A stretch of 64,000 bases of DNA from Streptomyces spiramyceticus (GTDB lineage Bacteria > Actinomycetota > Actinomycetes > Streptomycetales > Streptomycetaceae): NCBI RefSeq assembly GCF_028807635.1, contig NZ_JARBAX010000001.1:4389501-4453500 (forward strand), in the 5' to 3' direction. The position numbers were made by a program, and so were the translations under genes. The notes under the pieces are model-generated. The model made no database searches, was not told the DNA's origin, and saw only the letters and a program-made list of their open reading frames with translations. Positions 8,566 through 46,736 of this stretch are shown in pieces. How positions within the stretch are numbered: the stretch's first letter is position 1; each line of letters starts with the position of its first letter.

Positions 8566-8671
8566 CGTGTTTCCTCCTCGCATCGGTCGCCTGCGACCTT
8601 AACTGTCAGTGCCGCATGGCACGATCGGGACTGGACAGTTTCCGCTTTGTGCGTGCCCCGGGGAGACGCTC

Positions 8672-9037: not shown

Positions 9038-9633
9038 CGGCGGTGACGGTGGGCGGCGCCGTGGCAGGCCCGGACGGCGGCCTGCGCTGCCCGTGGGGCC
9101 TGGCCACCGAGGAGTACGTGGCGTATCACGACGAGGAGTGGGGCCGCCCGGTCCACGGCGACGACGCGCTGTACGAACGGCTCTGCCTGGAGGCGTTCCA
9201 GTCCGGCCTGTCCTGGCTGACGATCCTGCGCAGGCGCGAGGGCTTCCGTACCGCCTTCGACGGTTTCAAGATCGCTTCGGTGGCCGCCTTCACGGACGCC
9301 GACGCGGAGCGCCTGCTCGCCGACCCGGGCATCATCCGCAACCGCGCCAAGATCGCCGCGACCCTCGCCAACGCCAGGACGCTCGCCGACTGGCAGGCCG
9401 GCGAGCTCGACGCCCTCATCTGGTCGTACGCCCCGGATCCCGCGACGCGCCCGGCGCCCCGCACAATCTCCGACGTCCCGGCGGTCACCCCCGAGTCCGT
9501 CGCGCTGTCCAAGGCCCTCAAGAAGCGCGGCATACGCTTCGTGGGCCCCACTACCGCGTACGCGCTGATGCAGGCGTGCGGCCTGGTCGACGACCACCTC
9601 GCGGAGTGCGTGGTGCGCGGCGGGGCTTCCTAG
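9034..9633 (+). CDS. tag: DNA-3-methyladenine glycosylase I
   Basis: The 199-aa base-excision repair glycosylase removes N3-methyladenine from alkylated DNA. The Tag signature is clear: CPWG near residue 20, YVAYHDEEWGRPVHGDDALY, then the helix GLSWLTILRRREGFR and IRNRAKIAATLANAR. The C-terminal FVGPTTAYALMQACGLVDDH carries the zinc-binding Cys/His set. The length matches the family (about 190 aa). Its ATG overlaps the stop of the DivIVA-like gene (ATGA), so it is co-translated with it. Confidence 0.93.
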   Translation: MTAVTVGGAVAGPDGGLRCPWGLATEEYVAYHDEEWGRPVHGDDALYERLCLEAFQSGLSWLTILRRREGFRTAFDGFKIASVAAFTDADAERLLADPGIIRNRAKIAATLANARTLADWQAGELDALIWSYAPDPATRPAPRTISDVPAVTPESVALSKALKKRGIRFVGPTTAYALMQACGLVDDHLAECVVRGGAS

Positions 9634-9656
9634 GGCTCCCGCCGCGGTTCCAGCTC

Positions 9657-10457
9657 CTAGCGGCCGACGTACTTCGCCTTCTCCTTGGCGATGAAGGCCT
9701 CGACGGCGATGGTGTGGTCCTCCGACGCGCCCGCCTTCGACTGGAGTTCGTCCTCCTTTTCGAGGGTCTCGCTGAGGCTGTGAGCCGTGCCGTACGCCAT
9801 GGACTCCTTGATCGCGGCGTACGCGAGGGTCGGCCCCTCGGCCAGGGCGCGGGCGACGGCGGCCGCCTCCGTGGCCAAGTCATCGGCCGGGACGAGCTTG
9901 TTGGCGATGCCCAGGTCGAACGCCTCCTGCGCGGAGATGGAGCGCGGGAAGAGCAGCAGGTCGGCGGCGCGGCTCTGGCCGATCAGGCGCGGCAGCGTCC
10001 AGGAAACGCCCGAGTCGGCGGTCAGAGCGACGGCGGCGAAGGCCGTGTTGAAGGCGGCGTTGTCTGCTACGACCCGGTAGTCGGCGGCGAACGCGAAGCC
10101 CGCCCCGGCGCCGGCGGCGACCCCGTTGACCCCGGCGACGACCGGCTTCGGCATCTCGGTCAGGGCCCGCACGATGGGGTTGTAGTGCTCGCGCACCGTG
10201 TTCATGGTCTGGCCCGTGCCCGCCTCGCGGTCGGCGGCGAGCGAGGCGGTGTGCTCCCTGAGGTCCTGGCCCACACAGAAGGCCCGGCCGGTGGCGGTGA
10301 GCAGGACCGCCCGTACCGCGGAATCGGCGGCTGCGGCCTGCACGGCGTCCCGTAGTGCGACCTTGGCCTCGGTGTTCATGGCGTTCATGGACTCGGGACG
10401 ATTGATCGTGATCGTTGCGAGTCCGTCGGTCACCTCGTAGAGCACGGTGTCGGCCAT
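9657..10457 (-). CDS. Enoyl-CoA hydratase/isomerase (crotonase family)
   Basis: The 266-aa crotonase-fold enzyme has ATITINRPESMNAMNTEAKV (about residues 14-33), AFCVGQDLREH (oxyanion-hole region) and VNGVAAGAGAGFAFAADYR. The hydratase Glu pair is not intact: the position normally carrying the first catalytic Glu is in GVAAGAG and the second region reads ALTADSGVSWTLPRLIG. It resembles PaaG-type isomerases, whose key residue is an Asp (here in TADSG). Substrate is unknown; fatty-acid or phenylacetate-type acyl-CoA is possible. The ATG at 10457 follows AGGGGAT. The gene is convergent with tag. Confidence 0.85.
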   Translation of the reverse strand: MADTVLYEVTDGLATITINRPESMNAMNTEAKVALRDAVQAAAADSAVRAVLLTATGRAFCVGQDLREHTASLAADREAGTGQTMNTVREHYNPIVRALTEMPKPVVAGVNGVAAGAGAGFAFAADYRVVADNAAFNTAFAAVALTADSGVSWTLPRLIGQSRAADLLLFPRSISAQEAFDLGIANKLVPADDLATEAAAVARALAEGPTLAYAAIKESMAYGTAHSLSETLEKEDELQSKAGASEDHTIAVEAFIAKEKAKYVGR

Positions 10458-10760
10458 CAGTAGATCCCCTTTTGCGGCTCGGGCGGGCATGTCCAGCTCA
10501 GCATGGCGGAAGATCACCGGGCGTGAACATGTGACCTGCGTCAAACAAAGTGGGGTCCCTGAGTGGCCGACGGCGGCGAAGTATCGCAGGCGGACTGCCG
10601 AAATGAGGGGTTATGGGAGAGCGCGTTGCACAAGCGATGCCGACCGATGTTGGTCATTGGGTCCTGCGATGCGGGATAATGACCTGGAAGCAATGTGTTC
10701 GATGCCGGTGACACCTGGGTTGTCGGCTGCGATGAGCTGGTTTCAGGAAGGGGAACGAGC
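10458..10760. promoter_or_regulatory. Divergent intergenic region with candidate DUF3117 promoter
   Basis: No coding sequence is seen in these 303 bp. TTGGTC at 10650-10655 and GATAAT at 10675-10680, 19 bp apart, form a plausible vegetative promoter about 80 bp ahead of the DUF3117 ATG at 10761. The other half presumably contains the promoter of the minus-strand crotonase gene. I did not find a clear box for it. Confidence 0.4.
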
Positions 10761-10928
10761 ATGGCGGCCATGAAGCCGCGGACGGGCGACGGCCCGCTCG
10801 AGGTGACCAAGGAGGGGCGGGGCATCGTCATGCGCGTTCCGCTCGAAGGCGGCGGTCGACTTGTCGTCGAGCTGACTCCGGATGAGGCCGATGCGCTCGG
10901 CGACGCTCTGAAGAAGGTCGTCGGCTAG
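10761..10928 (+). CDS. DUF3117 small conserved protein
   Basis: The 55-aa protein is highly conserved in actinobacteria (M. tuberculosis Rv1211 homologue). Recognisable segments are KPRTGDGPLEVTKEGRGIVM and the Pro/Glu-Asp-Ala helix VELTPDEADALGDALKKV. No function is known. The ATG at 10761 follows GGAAGGGGAACGAGC. Upstream in-frame codons belong to the promoter region. It is monocistronic, with its own terminator directly downstream. Confidence 0.9.
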   Translation: MAAMKPRTGDGPLEVTKEGRGIVMRVPLEGGGRLVVELTPDEADALGDALKKVVG

Positions 10929-10949
10929 AAGCGGAAGCGCCCGAACTTT

Positions 10950-10988
10950 CCACTGCCCCGGCACGCGTACAGCGTGCCGGGGCAGTGG
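10950..10988 (+). terminator. Terminator hairpin after DUF3117
   Basis: A perfect 17-bp stem (10950-10966 with 10972-10988) with a 5-nt loop. There is no U tract, as is common for streptomycete terminators. Confidence 0.75.
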
Positions 10989-11024
10989 TGTGTCGCCCTC
11001 CCGAAATGCTGATGCCCGCCGGGT

Positions 11025-11251
11025 TAGGGCGTGTCCGGCGGATCATGCCTGGGCCGCGGGGCTTGGTGCGCACATCTGCGGCGTTGTCGTCACTCTTCCC
11101 CAAGCTCTCGGCTTCGCTCGAGCAGGGGAGGCCCCAATCGCTCCGCGTCGACTCCCTCCTCCGCCTTGCAGCTGCACGCACCAAGCCCCGCTCACCAGCA
11201 CCGAGAACACGCCGCACCCTGAAGCCGGCCTGATCCGCCGGACACGCCCTA
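11025..11251. mobile_element. MITE-like element with 21-bp perfect terminal inverted repeats
   Basis: A 227-bp non-coding element is bounded by perfect 21-bp inverted repeats at 11025-11045 and 11231-11251. Each end begins TAGGGCGTGTCCGGC. The ends start with TA, consistent with a TA target duplication like that of IS630/Tc1-type transposition. The interior holds an imperfect hairpin (about 11096-11135) related to the repeats at 7525 and 17053. It encodes no protein, so it would need a transposase in trans. The right end provides or overlaps the TAG stop (11249-11251) of the adjacent O-methyltransferase gene. From memory, near-identical elements are dispersed in many Streptomyces genomes. Confidence 0.75.
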
Positions 11252-11914
11252 GGCGCGGAGTACCGCGCACAGCAGGCCGTCGCCCACCGGGAGCAGGGAC
11301 GGGACCAGCCGCCGGCTCTCCCGTACGGAGCGCAGCAGCTCCCGCAGGCGCAGCACCTCCGCAGGCTGGGCCGCGGAGTCGACCGTACGGCCGTCCGCGA
11401 AGACACCCTCGAAAACGACGATTCCGCCCGGTCTGAGCAGGCGCAACGATTCAGCGAGATAGTCCATGCACTCGAGCCGGTCCCCGTCGCAGAAGACGAG
11501 GTCGTAGCCGCCGTCCGCGAGCCGTGGGAGCACGTCCAGGGCGCGGCCCGGAATGAAGCGAGCCCGGTTGCCGGCGAAGCCTGCCGCACGGAACGCCTCG
11601 CGGGCGAACTGCTGCCGCTCCGGCTCCGGGTCGACGGTGGTGAGTACGCCGTCCGGCCGCATGCCCTGCAGCAGATATATGCCGGAGACGCCGGTGCCCG
11701 TACCGATTTCGGCGACCGCCTTGGCGTCCGCCGTGGCAGCGAGCAGCCGCAGGGCACCGCCGGCGCCGGGCGAGACCGAGCGGAGCCCAGCGTCCCGCGC
11801 CCGATCACGAGCCCAGTGCAGGGCTTCGTCCTCGGCGACATAGGCGTCGGCGAACGCCCAGCTCGTCTGCCGGTTGGCGGTAATGGGCCTCTCCTGTCCC
11901 CGTAGTTGGCGCAA
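11249..11914 (-). CDS. SAM-dependent O-methyltransferase (class I, COMT-like)
   Basis: The 221-aa Rossmann methyltransferase has motif [19 protein letters not shown] (about residues 68-85), the acidic TTVDPEPE and LVFCDGD. It aligns in position with M. tuberculosis Rv1220c beside sigE. The acceptor is unknown. The listed start is TTG at 11914 (reading [18 protein letters not shown]). An ATT codon 13 triplets later, with AGGAGAGGCCC just upstream, is an alternative non-canonical start that would fit the ribosome site better. Its stop codon lies inside the terminal repeat of the MITE. It is divergent from sigE. Confidence 0.85.
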
Positions 11915-11937
11915 CCGTGACTGTATCCGCTGACGTC

Positions 11938-11964
11938 GGGAACCCGCAGATGGGACCGGGCGTT
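11938..11964 (+). promoter_or_regulatory. Candidate ECF-type promoter of sigE
   Basis: GGGAAC (11938-11943) and CGTT (11961-11964) are separated by 17 bp. This matches the GGAAC...CGTT architecture used by SigE/SigR-type ECF sigma factors, so sigE may be autoregulated. Transcription would begin near 11970, which excludes the earlier in-frame GTG at 11917 as the translation start. Confidence 0.55.
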
Positions 11965-12054
11965 ATGACGGCAGGGGGAGAGATGAATCAGGACCGAGTG
12001 CGGGTTCCAAATTCACGTAAAGATGCTTATCCGGAGCTAACGGGCGAGGTGGCT

Positions 12055-12837
12055 ATGGTAGGGGCTCCACTGGACACCACCAGAGCCGACAGGGGAGGTG
12101 CGGCTGCGCCTGTGGATCGGGGTGGAGTGCTGCGGCGCTTTCTCAGATCGGCGGGTGAGCCGAAATCCGTGACCGACATTGCTGACCGCGCCCATGGCCT
12201 CAACGGCTCCGCACAGACCGCGACCTTCGCCTCAGATGCGGAATCTCAGGCGTGGACTCCGCCCACATGGGAGGAGATCGTCAGCACGCAAAGTGGCCGC
12301 GTTTACCGCCTCGCTTACCGTCTGACCGGAAACCAGCACGATGCCGAGGACCTCACCCAAGAGGTTTTCGTCCGTGTCTTCCGCTCGCTGTCGACCTACA
12401 CGCCCGGCACTTTCGAGGGCTGGCTCCACCGCATCACGACCAACCTGTTCCTGGACATGGTCCGCCGCAAGCAGCGGATCCGCTTCGACGCGCTCGGCGA
12501 CGACGCCGCCGAGCGGCTGCCGAGCCGTGAACCGTCCCCGCAGCAGGTCTTCAACGACACGCACTTCGACGCGGACGTGCAGCAGGCGCTGGACACTCTC
12601 GCGCCCGAGTTCCGTGCGGCCGTCGTGCTCTGTGACATCGAGGGGCTTTCGTACGAGGAGATCGCCGCGACGCTGGGCGTCAAGCTCGGCACTGTACGCA
12701 GCCGAATCCACCGGGGCCGCTCCCATCTGCGCAAGGCTCTGCAGCACCGGTCTCCCGAGGCCCGTGCCGAGCAGCGTTCGCTTGCGACGGTCGGCACGGG
12801 TATCCCGGTGGTGGGCGGAGAGGGCGGAGCCGAGTGA
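12055..12837 (+). CDS. sigE: ECF sigma factor, SigE family
   Basis: A 260-aa extracytoplasmic-function sigma factor. Region 2 includes [29 protein letters not shown] and the -10-recognition segment [20 protein letters not shown]. Region 4 is [30 protein letters not shown]. It corresponds to M. tuberculosis SigE by neighbours: methyltransferase upstream, then rseA, htrA and tatB. I prefer the ATG at 12055. ATG 11983 (AGGGGGAG upstream, tight spacing) is an alternative, and the earlier GTG 11917 lies before the predicted promoter. The N-terminal 65 residues are variable. The stop overlaps the rseA GTG (GTGA). Confidence 0.92.
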
Positions 12838-34794: not shown

Positions 34795-35436
34795 TCAGTG
34801 CTGCTCCGTACTGTGCAGCGGGAAGCCTGCGATTCCGCGCCAGGCCAGGGACGTCAGCAGCTGTACCGCCGTGTCCCGCGGGATGGTGCTGCCACTGGAG
34901 AGCCAGTAGCGCGCGACCACCTGCGAGACGCCGCCGAGGCCTACGGCGAGCAGCATCGACTCGTCCTTGGACAGGCCGGTGTCCTCGGCGATGACCTCAC
35001 TGATCGCCTCGGCGCACTGGAGCGAGACCCGGTCGACACGCTCGCGCACGGCGGGCTCGTTCGTCAGGTCCGACTCGAAGACCAGACGGAACGCACCGCC
35101 CTCGTCCTGGACGTACGCGAAATAGGCGTCCATCGTCGCGGCGACGCGCAGCTTGTTGTCGGTGGTCGACGCGAGAGCTGTGCGCACCGCCTGGAGGAGT
35201 GACTCGCAGTGCTGGTCGAGGAGGGCCAGGTAGAGCTCCAGCTTGCCCGGGAAGTGCTGGTAGAGCACGGGCTTGCTGACGCCGGCGCGCTCGGCGATGT
35301 CGTCCATCGCCGCAGCGTGGTAACCCTGCGCGACAAAGACCTCCTGTGCCGCGCCGAGGAGCTGATTACGTCGGGCACGGCGTGGCAGGCGAGTGCCCCG
35401 TGGGCGTGCCGCCTCTGTCTGCTCGGTGGCTGTCAC
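34795..35436 (-). CDS. TetR-family transcriptional regulator
   Basis: A 213-aa regulator. The N-terminal HTH is NQLLGAAQEVFVAQGYHAAA followed by MDDIAERAGVSKPVLYQHFP (about residues 24-65). The C-terminal ligand domain is helical. M. tuberculosis Rv3208 is the positional equivalent. The GTG at 35436 has GGGAGG five bases upstream and is preferred to the ATG at 35448. The ligand and regulon are unknown. The nearby DUF3107 and the alpha/beta hydrolase are candidate targets by position only. Confidence 0.88.
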   Translation of the reverse strand: MTATEQTEAARPRGTRLPRRARRNQLLGAAQEVFVAQGYHAAAMDDIAERAGVSKPVLYQHFPGKLELYLALLDQHCESLLQAVRTALASTTDNKLRVAATMDAYFAYVQDEGGAFRLVFESDLTNEPAVRERVDRVSLQCAEAISEVIAEDTGLSKDESMLLAVGLGGVSQVVARYWLSSGSTIPRDTAVQLLTSLAWRGIAGFPLHSTEQH

Positions 35437-35610
35437 GCCGCCTCCCATGTCTTTCAATGTCGCGGCCTTTCAACAGCACGGCCGTTCCGTGCGGGGTGTG
35501 CGCCGCGCCCGCCATCGTACTTTTGGGTAACCCGGCTGCGCGCGGTGCGGACGCAGAATTTCACGGACCGGACGGCGGCGGAAGGCTGATCAAGGGCGAA
35601 TCGGAGCAGA

Positions 35611-35829
35611 TCAGCGGTAGTCGTCCTCGTCGAGATTGACGACGCGTGCCTGTTCGGTGGCATCCGCCTCGTTCGCGGCATCACGGTCGATGCCGGTCAG
35701 AGGGGCGTCGTGGCTCTGCTGCCAGTCCGTGTGCTGCTCAGCGGCATCGGCCTCGGAGGCGTCGTCGTCGAGTTCCTCAAGATCTTCGTCTTCTTCGAAG
35801 GTTTCCGGGTCGGTGGGATCGACGGACAT
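35611..35829 (-). CDS. Small acidic protein
   Basis: The 72-aa protein is very acidic (DPTDPETFEEDEDLEELDDD) and ends in RVVNLDEDDYR. It has no signal peptide or membrane segment and is probably disordered. GGGAG lies just ahead of the ATG. Function unknown. It sits in the gap between TetR and the hydrolase, on the strand opposite the latter. Confidence 0.7.
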   Translation of the reverse strand: MSVDPTDPETFEEDEDLEELDDDASEADAAEQHTDWQQSHDAPLTGIDRDAANEADATEQARVVNLDEDDYR

Positions 35830-35953
35830 CAGGACTCCCTTTCATGGAGATTCACGGAGACGCCGGGGCCGGGGCGCTGTGCCCTTGCTCCGAGCGTAGT
35901 TCTGTGACGGCGAACACACGATCCAGCGCGTGATCGTCTCGTAACATTGCCGC

Positions 35954-36916
35954 ATGTCTTCGACCGAGCTGCCCGGACCCAGCGTCGCAGCCGCCCCGGT
36001 GCCAAGAGTCAGTACCGTGCGGGTCGCCGACGGAGAGAAGCTTCGTTCCGTCACCCTGCCGGGGCTGACGCTGAACATCCGCGCCCGGCCCCCGGCGCGC
36101 AGCGGACTGCCGCCCGCGCTGTACGTGCACGGGCTCGGCGGGTCTTCGCAGAACTGGTCGGCGCTGATGCCGCTCCTCGACGAGTACGTGGACGGCGAGG
36201 CGCTCGACCTGCCGGGCTTCGGCGACTCGCCGCCGCCGGACGACGGCAATTATTCGGTCACGGCGCACGCCCGGGCGTGCATCCGGCTGCTCGACGCGAG
36301 CGGGCGTGGTCCCGTGCACATCATCGGTAACTCGATGGGCGGCGCCGTCGTCACGCGTGTGGCCGCCGTCAGACCGGACCTGGTGCGCACGCTCACGCTC
36401 GTCTCGCCCGCCCTCCCCGAGCTCCGCGTGCAGCGCACGGCGGTGCCGACCGCGCTGCTGGCGGTGCCCGGCATCGCCTCGCTGTTCGCCCGGCTCAGCA
36501 AGGACTGGACGGCGGAGGAGCGTACGCGCGGGGTCATGGGGCTCTGTTACGGCGACCCGGCGATGGTCACGCCAGAGACGTTCGCCCACGCCGTCGAGGA
36601 GATGGAGCGGCGGCTGGAGCTGCCGTACTTCTGGGATGCGATGACCCGCTCGGCGCGCGGCATCGTCGACGCGTACACACTGGGCGGACAGCACGGTCTG
36701 TGGCGCCAGGCCGAGCGGGTGCTCGCGCCGACACTGCTGGTGTATGGGGGCAGGGACCAGCTCGTGTCGTACCGTATGGCGCGCAGGGCCGCGGCTGCGT
36801 TCCGGGATTCGCGGCTGCTGACCCTGCCGGACGCCGGGCACGTGGCGATGATGGAATACCCGGAGGCGGTCGCCGGCGCCTTCCGGGAACTGCTGGACGA
36901 CTGCGGTAGGAGCTGA
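35954..36916 (+). CDS. Alpha/beta hydrolase (LipV-like)
   Basis: The 320-aa serine hydrolase has LYVHGLGGSSQNWSALMPLL, LDLPGFGDSPPP, nucleophile GNSMGGAVV (about residue 125) and a final GHVAMMEYPEAVAGAF with the catalytic His. It corresponds by position to M. tuberculosis Rv3203 (LipV). No signal peptide is seen. The ATG at 35954 is used. The DUF3152 gene starts nine bases after its stop, so they are probably co-transcribed. Confidence 0.87.
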   Translation: MSSTELPGPSVAAAPVPRVSTVRVADGEKLRSVTLPGLTLNIRARPPARSGLPPALYVHGLGGSSQNWSALMPLLDEYVDGEALDLPGFGDSPPPDDGNYSVTAHARACIRLLDASGRGPVHIIGNSMGGAVVTRVAAVRPDLVRTLTLVSPALPELRVQRTAVPTALLAVPGIASLFARLSKDWTAEERTRGVMGLCYGDPAMVTPETFAHAVEEMERRLELPYFWDAMTRSARGIVDAYTLGGQHGLWRQAERVLAPTLLVYGGRDQLVSYRMARRAAAAFRDSRLLTLPDAGHVAMMEYPEAVAGAFRELLDDCGRS

Positions 36917-36924
36917 TCCGGGGC

Positions 36925-38367
36925 GTGGGACGACATAGCCGCCGAGGACCCGCGCCCAAGGGGGCTGCCCAACGGCCTGCGATAACAGGCGAGAGAGCCG
37001 CCGCGAGGCCGGAAACGGCGGGCGGGCCGCGCAGGCGGGGAGGGACGGAGCAGGACGCTGTCCCCGGCGCCTTTCCCGGCACCATTCCGGTACCTCCCCC
37101 GCAGTTCCAGCAGCAACAGCCGGTGCGCGGCGGGCACCCCGAGCAGCACGAGGGGGGCGGCGGCTGGGGCGCCGCGCTCGGGCGGTACGGCGACTGGCGC
37201 GGGGCGCCGCGCGGACCTCAGGGCGGGCAACAGGGCGGACCTCCAGGCGGGCAGTACGCCGCCCCGCACGGCGGGCAGATGCCGCAGGCGCCTGGGCCGA
37301 TGGTGCCCGGGCAGGGGCATCAGCCGCCCCCGCAGGCGCAGTTCGGCAGCGGGCCGCGGATACCGGGACCGCGGCAGGAATTCGTGGCGGCCTTCGACGG
37401 CCCTCGTACGGCGACCGCTGAGCGCGATGTTTTCGGCTCGGTCACCGACTGGGACACCGACGAGGCCGACGGCGGCAGGACGCTGGGCGTTCGGAGCCCC
37501 GGCCCGGACGCGGACGACGACGGCTACGGTGACGATTCCGGTTACGACGTCGACGCCCCCGCCAAAGGCGGCAAGGGGCGGGCGTTCACCGGGATCGCCG
37601 CCGCCGCGGTGACCACCGTGCTCGCCGTGGTCGTGGCCGGGCAGGTCGCCCAGGGCGACAAGGACCCCGTCGCGAACCCGGCCACGGGCGACCGGAGCAC
37701 CGACAGCGACGCCTCGCGTTCGGACGACCGGCCGGCGCCGTCGCAGGGCGCCGTGGAGGCCCCGGCGACGTACGAGCAGCTGATGGCCAGGACGTACCCG
37801 ATCGACCCCAAGCTGACGGCCGACGGCAAGTTCGACGCGGTCGGCGGGTTCGACAGGGCGCCCGGCCGGGGGCAGAAGTTCTCCTACCGGGTGGATGTCG
37901 AGAAGGGGCTGAAGCTCGACGCCGGGCTCTTCGCCAAGGCCGTGCACCTCACCCTGAACGACAACCGGAGCTGGGCGCACAACGGCGCCATGACCTTCGA
38001 GCGGATCTCCTCCGGGCGGCCCGACTTCGTCATTACGCTCGCGAGCCCCGGGACCACAGGTGTGTGGTGTGCGAAGTCGGGGCTCGAAACGCTCTCCGGG
38101 AACGTCTCGTGCGATTCGGCCGCGACCGAGCGCGTCATGATCAACGCGTACCGCTGGGCGCAGGGAGCCGAGACGTTCGGCGAGGACAAGATGCTCCCGT
38201 ACCGGCAGATGCTGATCAACCACGAGGTCGGCCACCGGCTCGGCCACGGACACAAGAACTGCCAGACGCCGGGCGAGCTCGCGCCGATCATGCAGCAGCA
38301 GACCAAGTCGCTGGACATCGGCGGCATCGAGTGCCGGCCCAATCCCTGGGTGTATCCCGGCAAGTGA
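36925..38367 (+). CDS. DUF3152 membrane-anchored metalloprotease-like protein
   Basis: A 480-aa protein. The N-terminal ~220 residues are low-complexity (Gly/Pro/Gln-rich) and cytoplasmic. One transmembrane helix lies at about 222-244 (AFTGIAAAAVTTVLAVVVAG). The extracytoplasmic DUF3152 domain contains the zinc motif H-E-V-G-H-x3-G-H-x-H (NHEVGHRLGHGHKNC) at about residue 432. This is a metzincin-like HExxH pattern, so it is probably a Zn-dependent peptidase. It corresponds to M. tuberculosis Rv3207c. The GTG at 36925 follows the hydrolase stop closely. Confidence 0.87.
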   Translation: MGRHSRRGPAPKGAAQRPAITGERAAARPETAGGPRRRGGTEQDAVPGAFPGTIPVPPPQFQQQQPVRGGHPEQHEGGGGWGAALGRYGDWRGAPRGPQGGQQGGPPGGQYAAPHGGQMPQAPGPMVPGQGHQPPPQAQFGSGPRIPGPRQEFVAAFDGPRTATAERDVFGSVTDWDTDEADGGRTLGVRSPGPDADDDGYGDDSGYDVDAPAKGGKGRAFTGIAAAAVTTVLAVVVAGQVAQGDKDPVANPATGDRSTDSDASRSDDRPAPSQGAVEAPATYEQLMARTYPIDPKLTADGKFDAVGGFDRAPGRGQKFSYRVDVEKGLKLDAGLFAKAVHLTLNDNRSWAHNGAMTFERISSGRPDFVITLASPGTTGVWCAKSGLETLSGNVSCDSAATERVMINAYRWAQGAETFGEDKMLPYRQMLINHEVGHRLGHGHKNCQTPGELAPIMQQQTKSLDIGGIECRPNPWVYPGK

Positions 38368-38607
38368 GACGCCGTCTCACAGCCGCTTCGGCCGGTCCGA
38401 CAAACCGTAGCCACGATCCGTAAGCACCGAAACGCTCCCTAGCGCGGCAGAACGCCACCAGGGGGCGAAAGTTACGCGTGTTCACCCCTTTTGGTGGCGC
38501 GATGGACAACCGTCCGTCGTGTCCCCGGCTTGTCCGCATACGGTCGGTCCCGCTGCGAGTCGCCGTACCAACGGCGGCCGTCCACAAGGGAGATCGGGGG
38601 TGCACTC

Positions 38608-40425
38608 GTGCGGATCGGACTGCTGACGGAGGGTGGCTATCCGTATGCGACAGGTGAGTCCAGGCTGTGGTGCGACCGACTCGTGCGCGGGCTCGCGCAG
38701 CACGAATTCGACATCTACGCCCTGAGCCGCAGCGCCGGCCAGGAGGCGCAGGGCTGGCTCCAACTGCCGCCCCAGGTACAGCGGGTGCGCACCGCGCCGC
38801 TCTGGGCGACGGAGGATTGCTTCGGGAGGGGCTGCCCGAAGGGCATCGCTGGAAGGGCGATGGTGGGAGACGGGTGGGCATACGGGCGGCGCGAACGACG
38901 GCGCTTTGCCGGGCACTTCAGGGAACTGGCCGACGCCGTCTGCGCGCCGGACGAGGCCGGCGCGGGCGAGCACTTCGCCGCAGGCCTGTACGGGCTCGCC
39001 GAACTGGCCCGCGAGCGCGGCGGCCTGCACGCCGCCCTGCGCTCCGAAGTCGCCGTGCGCGCCCTGGAATCCGCCTGCCGCGCCCCCGGCGCGAACCGCA
39101 TCGTGCACGCCGCCACGGTCCCCGACTACCTGGAGTTCGTCGACCTGCTGGAGCGCGCACTGCGTCCGCTCTCGCTCGACTGGTACGGCCAGGACGGCAT
39201 CGGCGCGGTCGATCTGTGCCACGCTGCGTCCGGCGGTTCAGCCGCCCTGCCGGGGCTTTTGGGCAAACGCTTCTTCGGGGTTCCGCTGCTGGTCACGGAG
39301 TACGGCGTACAACTGCGCGCGCACTACCTCGCCGTCGGCGAAACGCCCCGCAGTGCGCCGGTACGGGCCATGCTCGCCGCCTTCCACGGCAAGCTCACCG
39401 CCGAGGTGTACGCGCAGGCCGCCCTGATCACACCCGGCAATACGCACGCCCGGCGGTGGCAGGAACGGTGCGGCGCCGACCGTGCCAAGCTGCGCACCGT
39501 CTACCCCGGCATGGAGGCCGACCGTTTCGCGGCGGTGGGGGAGCCGGTGGGGGCGGCGGGGAACGGTGGCGGCGATCCCCGGACTGTCGTCTGGGTCGGC
39601 CGTATCGAGCCCGCCAAGGACCTCGTCTCACTGCTGCACGCCTTCGCCGAGGTGCGCAAGGAGGAACCGGGTGCCCGGCTCCGTATCGTCCACAGCCGGC
39701 ACGGGCAGGGGGCCGAGGCGGCGGCGTACCTCGCGCACTGTCGGGCGCTCGCCGCCCAGCTGTTCCCCGACGAGGCGGCCGACGCACACGCCGTGGGAGA
39801 CAACCCCGTCTCCTTCGAGGAGATCGGTGGCCCCGAGGTCCCCGAGCTGGCCGACGCCTACGCGGCGGGCGCGGTGGTCGTCCTGTCCAGCGTCGTCGAA
39901 GGCTTCCCGATCAGCCTGGTCGAGGCGATGTTCTGCGGGCGCGCGACCGTCTCGACGGACGTGGGCGCCGTCGTCGAAGTCATCGGCGGTACGGGCCTGG
40001 TGGTCCCGCCCCGCAATCCCCGCGCCCTCGCCGACGCCTGCCTGTCGCTGCTGCGGGATCCGCAGCGGCGCGAGCGGCTGGGTGCGGCGGCGCGCGCGCG
40101 GGCGCTCGAACTGTTCACCGTCGAGCAGAATCTCGCGGCATTTCGCGGCATTTACCTGGAACTGATCTCCCGCTGTCCGGTACGCCGCGAAGCCCTCGAC
40201 GAGGCCGGCGACCCGCTGCTTTTCGCCCACCCGGCGGAGGCGCATGTGCCGGGGCGCTGGGCGGGCGGCGGGAACAGCTGGAGCGGCTTGGGCGGCGGGA
40301 GCGGCGGCGGATCCGGGCCGCCGAGCTGGGCTGCGGCTGCTGCCGGGGTCCAGCCGGTGGGCGCAGGGTCGGTGTCAGGGGCGGGGTCAGGGTCGGGATC
40401 ACGGTCGGGGGAACGCGATGCCTGA
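38608..40425 (+). CDS. PelF-like glycosyltransferase (DUF3492 + GT4)
   Basis: A 605-aa cytosolic glycosyltransferase. The N-terminal DUF3492 region starts VRIGLLTEGGYPYATGESRL. The GT4-type C-terminal part has VWVGRIEPAKDLVSLLHAF (about residue 330) and the donor motif E-x7-E in EGFPISLVEAMFCG. This architecture is that of PelF, the polymerising or glycosylating enzyme of Pel polysaccharide loci. The acceptor and donor are unknown. The last ~45 residues are Gly/Ser-rich. The GTG at 38608 is the natural start because the Rossmann strand begins there. It is the first gene of a four-gene operon: the next ATG overlaps its stop by eight bases (40418). Confidence 0.9.
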   Translation: MRIGLLTEGGYPYATGESRLWCDRLVRGLAQHEFDIYALSRSAGQEAQGWLQLPPQVQRVRTAPLWATEDCFGRGCPKGIAGRAMVGDGWAYGRRERRRFAGHFRELADAVCAPDEAGAGEHFAAGLYGLAELARERGGLHAALRSEVAVRALESACRAPGANRIVHAATVPDYLEFVDLLERALRPLSLDWYGQDGIGAVDLCHAASGGSAALPGLLGKRFFGVPLLVTEYGVQLRAHYLAVGETPRSAPVRAMLAAFHGKLTAEVYAQAALITPGNTHARRWQERCGADRAKLRTVYPGMEADRFAAVGEPVGAAGNGGGDPRTVVWVGRIEPAKDLVSLLHAFAEVRKEEPGARLRIVHSRHGQGAEAAAYLAHCRALAAQLFPDEAADAHAVGDNPVSFEEIGGPEVPELADAYAAGAVVVLSSVVEGFPISLVEAMFCGRATVSTDVGAVVEVIGGTGLVVPPRNPRALADACLSLLRDPQRRERLGAAARARALELFTVEQNLAAFRGIYLELISRCPVRREALDEAGDPLLFAHPAEAHVPGRWAGGGNSWSGLGGGSGGGSGPPSWAAAAAGVQPVGAGSVSGAGSGSGSRSGERDA

Positions 40426-41914
40426 ATCCGGAACGGCCGCCGACGGCCGCAAGGCAGGCCTGACGTCGGTGCGGCGCGGGCCGGCCGACCCTGTGCGGGC
40501 CCTGATGCACCGGCACCGCGCACTCTGCGAGCGGGCCGTCGATCCGCTGGAGATCGCCGCCGGGCTCGAAGCGCACGGGGTGACCGACAGGACCGCGGCC
40601 CGTTTCCGGCACCGGGACGTCTTCAGCCTCGCCGAGGAGCTCTACGCACGGGTTCCGCGCACGGGGGACGACGGTCAGGCCGCGGGGGCCGCCGAGCCCC
40701 CGGCGCGCGAGGAGCTGCCGCGCGCGGGCTGGATCGCGTACGCGCTGCTTCCGGGCGTCGTCTGCGCCCTCACCGTCGCGGGGCTGAACATGTCGACGGG
40801 GCAGGCGCGGCTCGCCGTGGGGGTGCTGGGGGCGCTCACCGTCGCCGGTGCGCTCGCGCTCTGCCTGCGCAACGGGCCCCTGCGCGCCCCGGGGCGTACG
40901 GCGCCGGCCGCGCGCCTGTGGGCGCTCTGGCTCATCGGGTACGCCGTCTTCGGCGACGGGCTGCTCGGCGAGGTCCTCGACGGTGGCCCCGGCGGTGCGC
41001 ACGACGGTGGCCTCGGCGCGGCCTACGACGGCGGCCCGGGCGCTGCGCACGACGGCGGCCTGGGCGCGGCGCACGACGGCGGCCCCAGCGCGGCCCACGA
41101 CGGTGGACCTGGCGGTGCGCACGACGGAGGCCCTGGCGCGGCCCACGGCGGCGGCCCCGGTCCCAGCCCCGGCGTCGCCCACGGCGGCGGCCCCAGCGCG
41201 GCCTACGACGGCGGCCCGGGCGGTGCGCACGACGGAGGCCCTGGCGCGGCCCACGACGGCGGCCCCGGTCCTGGCCCCGGCGTCGCTCACGACGGCGGCC
41301 CCGGTCCCAGCCCCGGCGTCGCTCACGGCGGCGGCCCCGGCGTCGGCGACCGGGTCGGCTCCGACGGCTCCTGGCCCATGGCTACGGTGCCGTTCCTGGG
41401 GCTCACCGCTGCCCTGGCCCCCGCCGCCTGGTGCGCGCACCTCCTGTCCGTACAGGCGCGTCGCAAACTCGCCGCGAGCCGCGGCACCGAGGAGTTCGCC
41501 GAAGCGGCCAGGCCCCTCCTGCTCGGTGTCACCGCACTCTTCGTGTGCGCGCTCCTGGCCCTCCAGGCGGCTGTCGGAATCGCGGCGGGCGGCAACGGAC
41601 GAGTGGCGGCCTCCGCCGTCGCCCTCGGCGCGCTCCTCTTCCTCGCCCGGCTGCTCACCGTCCACGGCTTCCCCGAGTCCGCCTCGGCCGGGCTCGCGGC
41701 GGCAACTGCCGTACAGATCACCGCACTTGCGGCCGTACTCGCTGCTCGCCTGCCCGGCTGCGGCTTACTCGCCAGGCCCGTCGAGGCCGTTGTCCAGGCG
41801 GGAGGCGCGGGAGCCGTACCCGCTGTCGCCTGCGCCGCGGCGGCGCTCGGCCTGCTCGTCCACGCCACCGTGGCCCTCTCCCGTGCCTCCGCCCACGCGG
41901 CCCGGCACGACTGA
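40418..41914 (+). CDS. 8-TM membrane protein with collagen-like GGP repeat loop
   Basis: A 498-aa protein. A cytoplasmic N-terminus of about 100 residues is followed by helices at about 105-127, 130-150 and 160-180. A ~120-residue soluble loop (about 188-308) made of DGGPGGAH-type repeats comes next, then five more helices to the C-terminus. The role is unknown, perhaps the membrane partner of the PelF-like transferase (a flippase or export component), but it is not obviously PelG. The ATG at 40418 overlaps the glycosyltransferase stop by eight bases, so they are coupled. Repeat-free relatives should be compared to see whether the loop is a recent insertion. Confidence 0.8.
   Translation: MPESGTAADGRKAGLTSVRRGPADPVRALMHRHRALCERAVDPLEIAAGLEAHGVTDRTAARFRHRDVFSLAEELYARVPRTGDDGQAAGAAEPPAREELPRAGWIAYALLPGVVCALTVAGLNMSTGQARLAVGVLGALTVAGALALCLRNGPLRAPGRTAPAARLWALWLIGYAVFGDGLLGEVLDGGPGGAHDGGLGAAYDGGPGAAHDGGLGAAHDGGPSAAHDGGPGGAHDGGPGAAHGGGPGPSPGVAHGGGPSAAYDGGPGGAHDGGPGAAHDGGPGPGPGVAHDGGPGPSPGVAHGGGPGVGDRVGSDGSWPMATVPFLGLTAALAPAAWCAHLLSVQARRKLAASRGTEEFAEAARPLLLGVTALFVCALLALQAAVGIAAGGNGRVAASAVALGALLFLARLLTVHGFPESASAGLAAATAVQITALAAVLAARLPGCGLLARPVEAVVQAGGAGAVPAVACAAAALGLLVHATVALSRASAHAARHD
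40979..41350 (+). repeat. In-frame 24-bp tandem repeat (GGP-rich)
   Basis: About 14 in-frame repeats, mostly 24 bp (8 aa: D-G-G-P/L-G/S-G/A-A-H/Y), with three 36-bp variants containing GPSPGVAH or GPGPGVAH. The unit encodes Gly-Gly-Pro-rich sequence in the loop of the membrane protein. Units are nearly identical at the DNA level, so length variation between strains is expected. Confidence 0.85.
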
Positions 41915-42009
41915 GCCGCCACCTCCGATCCCGCGGAGCCGACGCCGCGGGCGCACACCGAAGCGCTCACCGCAGCACTCACCGCAACATCCCCGAAGGA
42001 GAACGTGAC

Positions 42010-42063
42010 ATGACCCCCCAACCCCCAGCCCCAGCCGGTCGGCACCGAGGGGACGCGCGATGA
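42010..42063 (+). CDS. Candidate 17-aa Pro-rich leader peptide
   Basis: A complete ATG frame of 17 codons (MTPQPPAPAGRHRGDAR) has a perfect AAGGAG seven bases upstream and a stop overlapping the epimerase ATG (ATGA). Its strong ribosome site and coupling suggest it directs translation of the downstream gene. The peptide itself may be non-functional. Poly-Pro codons could slow ribosomes. It lies in the 145-bp gap after the membrane-protein gene. Confidence 0.45.
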   Translation: MTPQPPAPAGRHRGDAR

Positions 42064-43073
42064 GGGTGCTGCTGCTCGGTGCCAATGGATACCTCGGCCG
42101 GTTCGTCGCCGACCGGCTGCTCGCCGACCCGGCCGTGCAGCTCACCGCTCTCGGACGGGGCGACGACGCCGACGTACGGTTCGACCTCGCCACCGGGAGC
42201 CCCGGTGCGCTGACCCGCTTCCTGGACGCGGTCCACCCCGGCGTCGTCGTCAACTGCGCCGGCGCCACCCGCGGCGGCGCCCGTGACCTGACCCGCCACA
42301 ACACCGTCGCCGTCGCGACCGTCTGCGAGGCCCTGCGCCGCAGTGGCTGCGGGGCGCGGCTCGTACAGCTCGGGTGTGCCGCCGAGTACGGGCCCTCGCA
42401 GCCCGGATCGTCCACCGCCGAGGACGCCGTGCCGCGCCCCGGCGGCCCGTACGGCGTCAGCAAGCTCGCGGCCACCGAGCTGGTGCTCGGCTCCGGCCTC
42501 GACGCCGTCGTCCTGCGCGTCTTCTCACCGGTCGGCCCCGGCACCCCGGCGGGCTCGCCGCTCGGCCGGCTCGCCGAGGCGATGCGGCGCGCGATGCAGT
42601 CGGGGGACGGCGAGCTCAAGCTCAGCGGCCTCGGAGTGCAGCGCGACTTCGTCGACGTGAGGGACGTGGCGCGCGCCGTGCACGCCGCCTCCCTCTCCGC
42701 CGCCCAGGGTGTCGTCAACATCGGCACCGGCCGCGCGGTGCGGCTGCGCGACGCCGCCGCCGTCCTGGCCAGGGTCGCGGGCTACGGAGGCGCCCTCCAC
42801 GAGCTCGACGCCCCCTCCGGATACGGCGCGGGGAGCGCGGCAGCGGCGGCGCGCAACGGAGGAGTGGGCGGCGTACTCGCTTCGGTGGGCGCCCCCAGGG
42901 GCGAGATGCCGGCGGAGCACCTGGGCGGCCCGCCGTTCCCGTACCCGGACGGCTGCGGCAGCTGGCAGCAGGCCGATGTGCGCACCGCGCGCGACCGGCT
43001 CGGCTGGCGCCCCAGGATCAACCTGGAGGAGTCGCTCGCCGACATCTGGATGGAGGCGGCATGCCGCATCTGA
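42060..43073 (+). CDS. NAD-dependent epimerase/dehydratase (extended SDR)
   Basis: A 337-aa nucleotide-sugar-type SDR. Its Rossmann motif is GANGYLG (residues 8-14). The active-site YGVSK (Y-x3-K) is at about residue 139, and the typical RVFSPVGPG, GLGVQRDFVDVRDVARAV and final CGSWQQADVRTARDRLGW follow. It likely modifies a sugar nucleotide used by the neighbouring glycosyltransferase, but the substrate is unknown. An overlap of 13 bases with the spherulin-4-like gene indicates one operon. The start overlaps the 17-codon leader peptide. Confidence 0.87.
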   Translation: MRVLLLGANGYLGRFVADRLLADPAVQLTALGRGDDADVRFDLATGSPGALTRFLDAVHPGVVVNCAGATRGGARDLTRHNTVAVATVCEALRRSGCGARLVQLGCAAEYGPSQPGSSTAEDAVPRPGGPYGVSKLAATELVLGSGLDAVVLRVFSPVGPGTPAGSPLGRLAEAMRRAMQSGDGELKLSGLGVQRDFVDVRDVARAVHAASLSAAQGVVNIGTGRAVRLRDAAAVLARVAGYGGALHELDAPSGYGAGSAAAAARNGGVGGVLASVGAPRGEMPAEHLGGPPFPYPDGCGSWQQADVRTARDRLGWRPRINLEESLADIWMEAACRI

Positions 43074-43816
43074 CCAGGAGGGGCACCCTGCAGGCCGTGA
43101 CCGCGGCGGACCGGATGGGCGTCGGCATCCCGGGGTACGCCCATCCGCTCGTCGCCCCCGTCGAGTGGGCCGAACTCACCCGGCCCGGAGCGCCCCTGCA
43201 CTGGACGGTGCTCAACGTCGCGAACGGCCCCGGCGCCCGGCCCGACCCGCACTGCCTGGAGGCGGCCGGCCGCCTGCGCAACACGGGTGTGAGGGTTCTG
43301 GGGCGGCTCGACGTGGCGTACGGCGCGCGGACCTTCGCCGAGCTCATCTCCGAGGGGCACCGCTTCCGTGACTGGTACCGGGTCGACGGTTTCTATCTCG
43401 ACCGGTGTCCGGCGGAGGGGGCGGACCTCCCCGGCGTCCGGCGTCTCGCCTCCACGCTGTCCGGGCTGACGGACGACGGCGCTCACCTGGTCCTGGGCCA
43501 GGGCACCCACCCGCATCCCGGGTACGCGGAAATCGCCCACCAGCTGGTGACCTTCTCGGGGCCCTGGACCGACTACCGCTGGTCGCAGGTGGCCGAGTGG
43601 ACCGCGGACCATCCGCCGGAGCGTTTCTGCCATCTGGTGCACGGCCTCCCGCGTACACACCTGGACGAGGCCGTACGTATCGCCCGCTGGCAGGGCGCCG
43701 GGACGGTCTTCCTGACCGACCGAAGCGACCGGGACGGACAAAACGACCCATTTGAGGCACTGCCCGGGTACTGGGACGAAATCGTCTCGCGGATCGGACC
43801 AGGTGTCTCGGAATGA
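43061..43816 (+). CDS. Spherulin-4 / GH135-like glycoside hydrolase-type protein
   Basis: The 251-aa TIM-barrel-type protein of the spherulation-specific family 4 has GIPGYAHPLVAP, TVLNVANGPGARPDP, VRVLGRLDVAYGART and VDGFYLDRCPAEG. The Asp of YLD is the likely catalytic or substrate residue. The Glu that follows it in many family members is Arg here. Fungal Sph3 (GH135) and PelA-type hydrolases act on GalN/GalNAc-rich polysaccharides, which fits the PelF-like neighbour. No signal peptide is visible, so an intracellular or leaderless role is likely. GGAGGCGGC precedes the ATG. Confidence 0.83.
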   Translation: MPHLTRRGTLQAVTAADRMGVGIPGYAHPLVAPVEWAELTRPGAPLHWTVLNVANGPGARPDPHCLEAAGRLRNTGVRVLGRLDVAYGARTFAELISEGHRFRDWYRVDGFYLDRCPAEGADLPGVRRLASTLSGLTDDGAHLVLGQGTHPHPGYAEIAHQLVTFSGPWTDYRWSQVAEWTADHPPERFCHLVHGLPRTHLDEAVRIARWQGAGTVFLTDRSDRDGQNDPFEALPGYWDEIVSRIGPGVSE

Positions 43817-43835
43817 GAAGGGGCGTGGCAGTGTT
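43809..43835 (+). promoter_or_regulatory. SigR-type promoter of moeZ
   Basis: CGGAAT (43809-43814) and GTT (43833-43835) are separated by 18 bp, matching the SigR consensus GGGAAT-N18-GTT with one mismatch. It overlaps the stop codon of the spherulin-4 gene. I recall moeB/moeZ being listed as a SigR (thiol-oxidative stress) target in S. coelicolor, which supports the reading. Confidence 0.6.
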
Positions 43836-43879
43836 ACGCGGAGAACAACCGTACTGACTTACCGACCTACGGAGTCCCC

Positions 43880-45058
43880 GTGTCGCTGCCACCCCTGGTC
43901 GAGCCCGCTGCCGAGCTCACTGTCGACGAGGTTCGCAGGTACTCCCGCCACCTGATCATCCCCGATGTCGGGATGGACGGGCAGAAGCGGCTGAAGAACG
44001 CCAAGGTGCTCGCCGTGGGCGCCGGCGGCCTGGGTTCGCCCGCGCTGATGTACCTCGCGGCGGCCGGCGTCGGCACCCTCGGCATTGTGGAGTTCGACGA
44101 GGTCGACGAGTCGAACCTGCAGCGCCAGATTATTCACAGCCAGGCCGACATCGGCCGCTCGAAGGCCGAGTCCGCCCGCGACTCCGTCCTCGGCATCAAC
44201 CCCTACGTGAATGTGGTCCTTCACGAAGAGCGGCTCGAAGCCGAGAACGTGATGGAGATCTTCTCCCAGTACGACCTGATCGTCGACGGCACGGACAACT
44301 TCGCGACCCGCTACCTGGTCAACGACGCGTGTGTGCTGCTCAACAAGCCGTACGTCTGGGGCTCGATCTACCGCTTCGACGGCCAGGCGTCCGTCTTCTG
44401 GTCCGAGCACGGCCCCTGCTACCGCTGCCTCTACCCGGAGCCCCCGCCGCCGGGCATGGTCCCGTCGTGCGCCGAGGGCGGCGTGCTGGGTGTGCTCTGC
44501 GCGTCCATCGGCTCGATCCAGGTCAACGAGGCGATCAAGCTCCTCGCAGGCATCGGTGAGCCGCTGGTCGGCCGACTGATGATCTACGACGCCCTGGAGA
44601 TGCAGTACCGCCAGGTCAAGGTCCGCAAGGACCCCGACTGCGCGGTCTGCGGCGAGAACCCGACCGTCACCGAGCTCATCGACTACGAGGCCTTCTGCGG
44701 CGTCGTGTCCGAGGAGGCCCAGGAGGCGGCGCTCGGCTCGACCATCACTCCCAAGCAGCTCAAGGAGTGGATCGACGCCGACGAGAAGATCGAGATCATC
44801 GACGTCCGGGAGCAGAACGAGTACGAGATCGTCTCGATCCCCGGCGCCCGGCTGATCCCGAAGAACGAATTCCTGATGGGCAAGGCCCTCGAAGATATGC
44901 CCCAGGACAAGCGCATCGTCCTGCACTGCAAGACGGGTGTCCGCAGTGCGGAGGTCCTCGCGGTGCTCAAGTCGGCGGGCTTCGCGGACGCGGTGCACGT
45001 CGGCGGCGGCGTGATCGGGTGGGTCAACCAGATCGAGCCCGAGAAGCCGGTCTACTAA
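43880..45058 (+). CDS. moeZ: Adenylyltransferase/sulfurtransferase MoeZ
   Basis: A 392-aa E1-like enzyme that adenylates and thiolates sulfur-carrier proteins for molybdopterin, thiosulfate-type or siderophore-related sulfur transfer. The ThiF/MoeB domain (about residues 20-270) has GAGGLGSPALMYLAAAG, the adenylate-binding DESNLQRQIIHS and zinc Cys pairs CYRCLYP and CAVCG. The C-terminal rhodanese domain carries the active-site HCKTGVRS (Cys about residue 355). The GTG at 43880 follows GGAG by seven bases. It corresponds to M. tuberculosis Rv3206c. Confidence 0.94.
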   Translation: MSLPPLVEPAAELTVDEVRRYSRHLIIPDVGMDGQKRLKNAKVLAVGAGGLGSPALMYLAAAGVGTLGIVEFDEVDESNLQRQIIHSQADIGRSKAESARDSVLGINPYVNVVLHEERLEAENVMEIFSQYDLIVDGTDNFATRYLVNDACVLLNKPYVWGSIYRFDGQASVFWSEHGPCYRCLYPEPPPPGMVPSCAEGGVLGVLCASIGSIQVNEAIKLLAGIGEPLVGRLMIYDALEMQYRQVKVRKDPDCAVCGENPTVTELIDYEAFCGVVSEEAQEAALGSTITPKQLKEWIDADEKIEIIDVREQNEYEIVSIPGARLIPKNEFLMGKALEDMPQDKRIVLHCKTGVRSAEVLAVLKSAGFADAVHVGGGVIGWVNQIEPEKPVY

Positions 45059-45080
45059 GGCTCGTCGGTACGTGACGTAC

Positions 45081-45121
45081 GAAGGGGCCGCCCCGCACAA
45101 CATGTGCGGGGCGGCCCCTTC
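45081..45121. terminator. Bidirectional terminator between moeZ and parB
   Basis: A perfect 18-bp stem (45081-45098 with 45104-45121) with loop AACAT, located between two convergent genes. Confidence 0.9.
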
Positions 45122-45129
45122 GGCTTGCG

Positions 45130-45945
45130 TCAGCGTCCCCGTGACAAGCGCCCCTGTGCCAGCAGTTCCGCCACCCGTTCGAGAGCGGCGGGCGCCAGGT
45201 TGCGGCGCAGCGCTTCGACGAGCTCCTCGGGCGTGCCCCGGCTGTCCAGGGTGATTACGCCGTAATCGCGCCGCCGTGCCTGCTGCCGTGCCTTGGGCAC
45301 GGGTGCGGCCGGCACGGCTCCCGGGAGCTGCTGTTCGTCGCGGGGCTGCCGCGCGATCCGGCGCGCGTCCTCGACCGACACGCGTCCGTCGGCCAGCGCT
45401 TCCTGGAGGTCCTCGCGGAGCCTCATCAGCGACAGCCGCTGCGAGACGAACCCCTGGGTCTTGCCGATCCGGGCGGCCACCTGCCGCTGCGAGTAGCCGT
45501 ACGAGGTGATCAGGCCCTGGATGGCCCGGGCCTGTTCGAGCTCGGTGAGATCGTCGCGCTGGACGTTCTCGATGAGCGCGTCCTCGTCGGTGCGGGTCGC
45601 GTCCTCCCGTACCAGCACCGGCACTTCACGCAGCCCGGCCAGCTTCGCCGCCGCCAGCCGACGGTGGCCGTGCAGTACGACGTACGGGGCGTTGCCCACC
45701 GCGGCCTCGTGTTGCGGATGCGCGCCGAGGAACGCGGCGCGCGAGACGACGCCGAGGGCCTGGAGCACGCCGCGCTCGCGCAGCGTCTCGGCCAGGCCGT
45801 CGAGGTCACGCAGCTCGTGGCGCGGGTTGTCGGGGTTCTCGGCCAGGTCCGCGAGCGGGAGGGTCAGCTGGTACGTGTCCCGCTCGGCGCGCGACGCGGG
45901 CGCTCCCGGAGTGAGCAGCGTGGCGAGGTCGGTGCGGCGGCCCAT
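45130..45945 (-). CDS. parB: ParB/Spo0J-family partition protein
   Basis: The 271-aa protein has an N-terminal ParB/sulfiredoxin-like domain (LADLAENPDNPRHELRDLDG) with the box VVLHGHRRLAAAKLAGL; the usual GERR is GHRR here. ENVQRDDLTELEQARAIQGL follows, then an HTH (YSQRQVAARIGKTQGFVSQR). It is likely a second, non-chromosomal-type ParB: the usual streptomycete parAB lies near oriC. The ATG overlaps the parA stop by one base (TGATG), so the two are co-translated. Confidence 0.88.
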   Translation of the reverse strand: MGRRTDLATLLTPGAPASRAERDTYQLTLPLADLAENPDNPRHELRDLDGLAETLRERGVLQALGVVSRAAFLGAHPQHEAAVGNAPYVVLHGHRRLAAAKLAGLREVPVLVREDATRTDEDALIENVQRDDLTELEQARAIQGLITSYGYSQRQVAARIGKTQGFVSQRLSLMRLREDLQEALADGRVSVEDARRIARQPRDEQQLPGAVPAAPVPKARQQARRRDYGVITLDSRGTPEELVEALRRNLAPAALERVAELLAQGRLSRGR

Positions 45946-46736
45946 CAGCGAGCCCCCGCCTTCTTGGGCGTACGCGGCTTCGTATGCGGCTTCGTGCGGG
46001 GCGCCCGCCTGGGCTTGGCCGGGGCCGGGATGACGGCGAGTCCGACCTCCAGTGCCAGGCGGAAGAAGTCCTCGCGGGCCTGGAGTGCGACGCGGTTCGC
46101 GCCGTACTGCGTGACGACGAGGCCGTCGGCCGATGCGCGGGTGTGCAGCTTGTAATGGCGTACGACGGTGCGCGCGAGGGGCCAGCCCTGCGCCTCGACG
46201 AACGCCCGGGTCTGGTCCAGATCCGCCTTGCCGTCGCGCGGGTCCCAGTTGTTGATGACCACCCGGAACGGCAGCCCGCGCGGCTTCACGACCCGCTCGA
46301 TGGTGCGCTGGGTGGGCTGGAAGCCGAGCGGCTCGGGCTCGATCGGCACGATCACGTCGTGCGCGCTGTCGAGGACGGCGCGCAGCGCGTCCGCCGCCGA
46401 CCCCTTCCCCAGGGGGTCCTCGCCGTCCGATTCCGCGAGGTCGAGCCAGCCGGGCGTATCGACGAAGACGTGTTGGGCGGAGGGGATGCGGGGGAGGGCG
46501 GCGAGCCCGGCGAGGTCGTCATGGGCCTGCACGAAGTCGAACGGCAGGCCGTCGCCGACCCGTTCCGACCACCACACGGCGGAGCCCTGCGGGTCGATCG
46601 AGACGGCGACGACGGGCGGCCGCTCGCCTTCGGGCCCGGCGCCGAGCACGTCGGCGGTGACGGCGGCGAGGTTGACGGCGAGCGTGGATTTACCCACGCC
46701 GCCCTTCTGATTGAGGATCACATGTACGTGGGCCAC
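45945..46736 (-). CDS. parA: ParA-family partition ATPase
   Basis: A 263-aa ATPase with deviant Walker A NQKGGVGKSTLAVNLAAV at residues 8-25. VAVSIDPQGSAVWWSERVGD (Walker A' region) and FVDTPGWLDLAES (Walker B) follow. The C-terminus is a basic Lys/Arg/Pro tail (PAKPRRAPRTKPHTKPRTP) that may bind DNA. The GTG at 46736 (VAHVHVILNQ) has GGGAGA upstream. It resembles plasmid or accessory ParA rather than the chromosomal one, judged by its neighbours. Palindromes lie upstream. Confidence 0.88.
   Translation of the reverse strand: MAHVHVILNQKGGVGKSTLAVNLAAVTADVLGAGPEGERPPVVAVSIDPQGSAVWWSERVGDGLPFDFVQAHDDLAGLAALPRIPSAQHVFVDTPGWLDLAESDGEDPLGKGSAADALRAVLDSAHDVIVPIEPEPLGFQPTQRTIERVVKPRGLPFRVVINNWDPRDGKADLDQTRAFVEAQGWPLARTVVRHYKLHTRASADGLVVTQYGANRVALQAREDFFRLALEVGLAVIPAPAKPRRAPRTKPHTKPRTPKKAGAR

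Follow-up and report, generated by a model that had tools for sequence, protein, structure and literature searches.

The stretch of Streptomyces spiramyceticus DNA analysed here (64,000 nucleotides (nt), contig NZ_JARBAX010000001.1, positions 4,389,501 to 4,453,500; hereafter the window), taken from a genome of 7.08 Mb in 2 contigs, carries at 38608-43816 an operon of four genes, A to D. The operon is probably a repurposed descendant of an actinobacterial type II galactosaminogalactan (GAG)/Pel-like cluster, working as a membrane glycosyltransferase (GT) module that makes a short glycoconjugate and not as a Pel exporter. As far as sequences go, its relation to the GAG-like clusters is demonstrated by a shared gene order, by homology of all four proteins and by the changes found in D, C and B, whereas descent by loss is our undated scenario for how it arose. 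A sequence-only reading had proposed a cationic galactosamine (GalN)/N-acetylgalactosamine (GalNAc) polysaccharide pathway; descent from such a system stands, but a working pathway of this kind at the locus is not supported, as the catalytic pair of D, the accessory genes and several helices of B are missing. The four genes, the 8-nt A/B and 13-nt C/D overlaps and the 17-codon leader it described are all present in the window sequence, as follows.

38608..40425, + strand: A, GT4 glycosyltransferase with DUF3492, PelF-related, GTG start (Pfam, motif alignment)
40418..41914, + strand: B, membrane protein with an N-terminal helical domain and about 8 transmembrane (TM) segments (hydropathy scan, structure models)
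40966..41368, + strand: GGP-rich loop of B, coding tandem repeat (sequence, comparison with relatives)
42060..43073, + strand: C, extended short-chain dehydrogenase/reductase (SDR), catalytic Ser replaced by Cys (Pfam Epimerase, alignment)
43061..43816, + strand: D, spherulin-4/GH135-family protein without the catalytic Asp/Glu pair (Pfam PF12138, alignment)
38469..38543, + strand: conserved leader element 5' of A with a 15-bp hairpin inside (alignment, covariation)
42010..42063, + strand: leader open reading frame (ORF) of 17 codons with an AAGGAG site, ATGA-coupled to C (27/31 core loci)
36925..38367, + strand: DUF3152 gene, flanking context (Pfam, neighbourhood comparison)
43880..45058, + strand: moeZ-like ThiF-rhodanese gene, flanking context (Pfam, neighbourhood comparison)

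Relation to GAG-like clusters

Bamford et al. 2020 (PMC7229062) describe bacterial Agd3 operons and link them to the fungal GAG cluster; a GT is joined there by a multi-spanning protein and GH114, with spherulin-4 added in some Actinobacteria. The window operon shares with them a cytoplasmic GT4, a multi-spanning protein and a spherulin-4 gene, and holds the combination of a DUF3492 GT4, a multi-TM protein and spherulin-4; it differs in having neither an Agd3-like gene nor GH114, in a D without its catalytic pair, in a shorter B and in the Cys that replaces Ser in C. Bacterial GAG-like operons as such appear in that source, and our literature searches returned no paper on the core version found here. 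A cluster of the fuller type lies in the same genome (G000:C1 1371500-1391400; minus strand at 5830-12425 of that extract, L033) in the order Agd3-like-PelF-499-aa membrane protein-spherulin-4-GH114, with a 12-helix MATE-fold membrane protein, a spherulin-4 protein that has the catalytic pair and a GH114 protein with a lipoprotein-like start. Such accessory clusters are the role-by-role counterpart of the Aspergillus GAG cluster (uge3, gtb3, agd3, ega3, sph3). A class-level relative (G057) has GalE-A-B-D-GH114 along with another spherulin-4, of secreted type, and a protein that matches Agd3 weakly. In locus L041, a secreted-type second spherulin-4 (6704-7933) and a weak-Agd3, fibronectin-domain protein (8000-11038) both lie beside GalE-A-B-D-GH114.

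A search with aligned D homologues gave 463 loci; of the best 80 of these, 59 have the order Agd3-like-A-B-D-GH114, 16 Agd3-like-A-B-D, three are of type II and two are incomplete. The type II clusters, rarer than the type of the paralogous cluster, read Agd3-like-A-B-dehydratase-nucleotidyltransferase-C-D-GH114 (for example L054 4300-13657 and L057 4577-15019), so that they add a LegB-like 4,6-dehydratase (444 bits against a cut-off of 475), a nucleotidyltransferase and, just before D, a C homologue; these additions suggest that the polymer is built from a 6-deoxy sugar and not from GalNAc only. Outside the family, one locus (L256) has all eight type II genes; another (L255) has Agd3-like, A, B, nucleotidyltransferase and C homologues with a distant dehydratase (30% identity) and no D or GH114 match; a third (L257) is type I-like with B unmatched. 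The window order A-B-C-D fits the type II order minus four genes. Neither the 64-kb window nor any of 33 other core loci, many of them only about 7 kb long, gave a match to those four (Agd3-like, LegB-like dehydratase, nucleotidyltransferase and GH114), the Agd3-like and GH114 searches being made by tblastn with the genome's own copies at E<=1e-5; the sole exception, a weak SDR cross-match in L201, is C itself.

Changes in the four proteins

A was described from sequence as a PelF-related DUF3492 plus GT4 protein, and this holds: Pfam finds DUF3492 at 100.8 bits with GT1 domains (GT4), the EX7E motif is present in 24/24 core A sequences and the donor-site Arg and Lys are each present in 22/24, with the N-terminal loop changed. 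Its NCBIfam PelF score (91.1 bits) falls under the cut-off of 100, and the paralogue in the same genome exceeds it (166.8). PMC7112168 describes Gram-positive Pel operons, pelDEADAFG, with which the window operon shares a PelF-related GT and a neighbouring sugar epimerase-type SDR gene; it differs by the sub-threshold PelF score and by having no PelG match. The claim that PelA, PelD, PelE and PelG are lacking is borne out for PelG (PF16933) across the whole genome at E<=1e-3, any remote MOP-fold homology being a separate matter, and for PelA, PelD and PelE, as for a deacetylase, among the Pfam matches of the four genes, the rest of the genome not having been searched for these.

B has no Pfam match. 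A hydropathy scan gives eight TM segments, as had been read from the sequence, and the protein, a homologue of the 12-helix MATE-type protein, appears from structure models to have about four TM helices fewer. The GGP-rich loop noted earlier is present, but it is encoded by a 24-nt tandem repeat that was not seen in the relatives compared (22 aligned), in which the match to B is interrupted at residues ~193/314. The repeat site may be prone to slippage. In L185 the B reading goes out of register near the position corresponding to the window repeat, 40966-41368.

C was correctly recognized as an extended SDR of epimerase type (Pfam Epimerase, 126.7 bits). The closest solved sequence is GDP-6-deoxy-D-lyxo-4-hexulose reductase (RMD, 2pk3; E 3e-19), with which C shares the Tyr-x3-Lys motif and the Gly-rich loop, GxxGxxG being present in 70/72 C rows and YxxxK in 72/72 (54 distinct). 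It differs from RMD at the catalytic Ser/Thr position, which is Cys in 72/72 core rows (54/54 distinct) and Ser in 9/9 non-core rows, one of them (L221) a remote SDR.

The fourth protein is indeed GH135-related by sequence family (Spherulin4 PF12138, 75.6 bits against a cut-off of 30.2), and the window D shares 97% identity with its counterpart in Streptomyces sp. ISL-98 (P0001); a single-sequence search with D gave no PDB Sph3 match. The catalytic Glu is present in 0/121 core D sequences and the Asp/Glu pair in 0/27 core genome loci (the genomes partly overlapping); both residues are present in 85/85 accessory D rows (84 distinct). D thus belongs to the Sph3 family but, compared with Aspergillus Sph3, lacks both the signal peptide and the catalytic pair, and the name 'spherulation-specific family 4' that automatic annotation gives to core D does not imply an active galactosaminidase. 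The absence of a signal peptide, which had been called odd, is real (a crude hydropathy test was passed by 0/120 relatives), but D of the paralogous cluster L033 and of G057 also has none.

These changes bear on whether the operon could be a true Pel/GAG-type export system, in which A polymerizes UDP-GalNAc, the 8-TM B, perhaps as a dimer, exports the polymer and modification occurs in trans or is unneeded. The retention of EX7E in A and the homology of every gene to GAG-like clusters fit such a system, as do the galactosamine polysaccharides reported from Streptomyces cell walls (PMC7229062). We nonetheless consider it rather unlikely, given the loss of the catalytic pair from D, the roughly four TM helices missing from B, the absence of PelG from the window genome at the threshold above and the distribution of accessory-type A, strong in only 80/199 Streptomyces genomes as against 181/199 for D at E<1e-50 (counted by hand; 190/199 at E<=0.001).

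Leader element and coupled gene starts

The leader of A contains a hairpin at 38493-38526 with a 15-bp stem and an AACC loop, preceded by the invariant TTCACCCCTT. In an alignment of 35 distinct loci, chosen by a sequence pattern that itself requires the conserved core, 94.1% of cells are paired, and four pairs are double-changed, in 13 cells that count sequences and not events. Shuffled alignments reached these cell counts or the covariation score in 0/500 cases; the number of double-changed pairs was matched in 50/500 and the number of pair types in 40/500, and sliding the partner by 1-3 columns left 0-4 double-changed cells. The folding z scores are -4.1 (46 nt) and -2.3 (75 nt), and the G-U intermediates favour an RNA structure over a DNA dyad. 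A search of 35000-46000 against Rfam gave no match. A covariance model of the leader matched only the window and L040 among 33 sources, with a reverse-strand echo, and the hairpin was not found in the decayed locus L038 of genome G010.

Before C, an ORF of 15-23 codons (more than 19 in two loci) with a Shine-Dalgarno site ends in ATGA at the start of C in 27/31 loci, L185 being left out of the count as the start of its C was unmatched; the other-frame control gave 0/62. The stop is mechanical, because C begins ATGAGG or ATGAGA, so the evidence lies in the placed ATG and the ribosome site. The 13-nt C/D overlap is likewise kept in 25/26 core loci.

Conservation, selection and proposed role

Within the genus Streptomyces the operon belongs to the core. 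Co-conservation of the four genes, raised as a check on the first reading, was found in 25 of 27 core loci, which match A, B, C, D and MoeZ; B is matched in 27/27 and the two loci without A are contig ends. B was found in 35/37 genus genomes and weakly in 1/24 others (36/61 overall), and C at E<=1e-100 in 355/394 family genomes and 12/17 genera; joint presence of A to D was read in loci and not counted over the 199- or 394-genome samples, and outside Streptomyces the core operon was counted by C only. DUF3152 and moeZ adjoin without the operon in 3/3 outgroup loci read (DUF3152 was found in 4/19 genomes searched, three of which were read). The interruption of this neighbourhood is therefore real, as had been claimed, but it is an old insertion common to the genus and not specific to the strain.

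Median dN/dS values of the core genes are 0.064 for MoeZ, 0.122 for C, 0.279 for D, 0.309 for A and 0.472 for B (276 pairs each from 24 core loci, 275 for B, with MoeZ partial in most loci), so that purifying selection among the four operon genes is strongest on C. Accessory genes give 0.414 for the Agd3-like gene, 0.325 for A', 0.445 for B', 0.389 for D' and 0.360 for GH114 (23 loci chosen from 85, 21 for GH114). The altered D thus appears to be under constraint no weaker than that on the active-type D', the samples being different. D is also dispensable: it is missing, weak or odd in 17 genomes, in 15 of which C is present at E<1e-100 (in three of these the C match spans 253-254 of 337 residues). 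In six such loci that were read, no D lies between C and moeZ, remnants of D persist in three and C is retained; every one of the six has a match to A, which in L263 falls into two pieces separated by 1.2 kb, and five have a match to B.

This pattern could be taken to mean that C is the centre of the operon, a housekeeping SDR serving other glycosylation pathways, with A, B and D as older partners retained through coupling. Of the four genes C shows the lowest dN/dS; it is 77-97% identical by best segment between the window and 27 loci and outlasts the loss of D. The catalytic residues retained in A, the matching of A and B in nearly all core loci, the conserved leader before A and the coupled gene starts speak against this explanation, which we regard as quite unlikely. 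It is very improbable that the operon is what remains of a polysaccharide cluster in decay, with no present function: the catalytic losses in D, the loss of D from the six loci, the split or interrupted A and unmatched B of L263 and the wholesale decay in G010, where all four core genes in L038 look decayed and only fragments remain, would fit, but the median dN/dS is below 0.5 for all four genes, that of D is no higher than that of D' in its differing sample, C is widely kept in the family and the leader structure is conserved.

As a repurposed membrane GT module, the operon would work through A as a still active GT4 enzyme at the cytoplasmic face, through B, which would hold A at the membrane and no longer act as a MATE-type polymer flippase, and through C, its most constrained member, which would supply or handle an NDP-(4-keto-6-deoxy)sugar donor, with D as an optional, putatively glycan-binding pseudo-hydrolase. 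Because C resembles GDP-4-keto-6-deoxy-sugar reductases and type II clusters carry a dehydratase and a nucleotidyltransferase, the first donor to consider is a 6-deoxy or amino-deoxy sugar. The product is expected to be a short glycoconjugate, either a glycolipid or a glycosylated membrane component, and not an exported cationic GalN/GalNAc polymer, and expression would pass through the structured leader before A and termination-reinitiation before C. More tentatively, and with somewhat less than even confidence, we propose a near-universal Streptomyces glycoconjugate pathway derived from a dismantled cationic-polysaccharide operon, in which the GT was kept, the flippase became an anchor, the hydrolase became a glycan-binding pseudo-enzyme and the reductase acquired an invariant Cys, under a structured RNA leader and a micro-ORF.

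Several points weigh against a repurposed module. A Ser-to-Cys change in an SDR need not kill activity, a dimer of the shorter B could be functional and, where a genome carries accessory enzymes, these could work in trans. Neither B model gives a Foldseek match at E<=0.001; one model was built from 42 sequences and that of core B from 23, the latter with an N-terminal domain of low confidence. The Agd3/CE18 label depends on Pfam matches under the cut-off, five type II Streptomyces loci were read, and the A tree (53 rows, using 20/77 type I rows) has a midpoint root, a long core stem (1.86) and long outgroup branches.

On the reading of a repurposed module, the operon would show how a polysaccharide synthase cluster has been diverted in nature to other use, for which the parent cluster, present unaltered in the same genome, offers a built-in control and the Cys-for-Ser replacement in an otherwise very conserved SDR a testable change, in a core part of the main antibiotic-producing genus. 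In two loci (L035 2277-7700 and L036 1430-7000), peptide-binding-protein-like and ABC-transporter-permease-like genes lie between DUF3152 and A.
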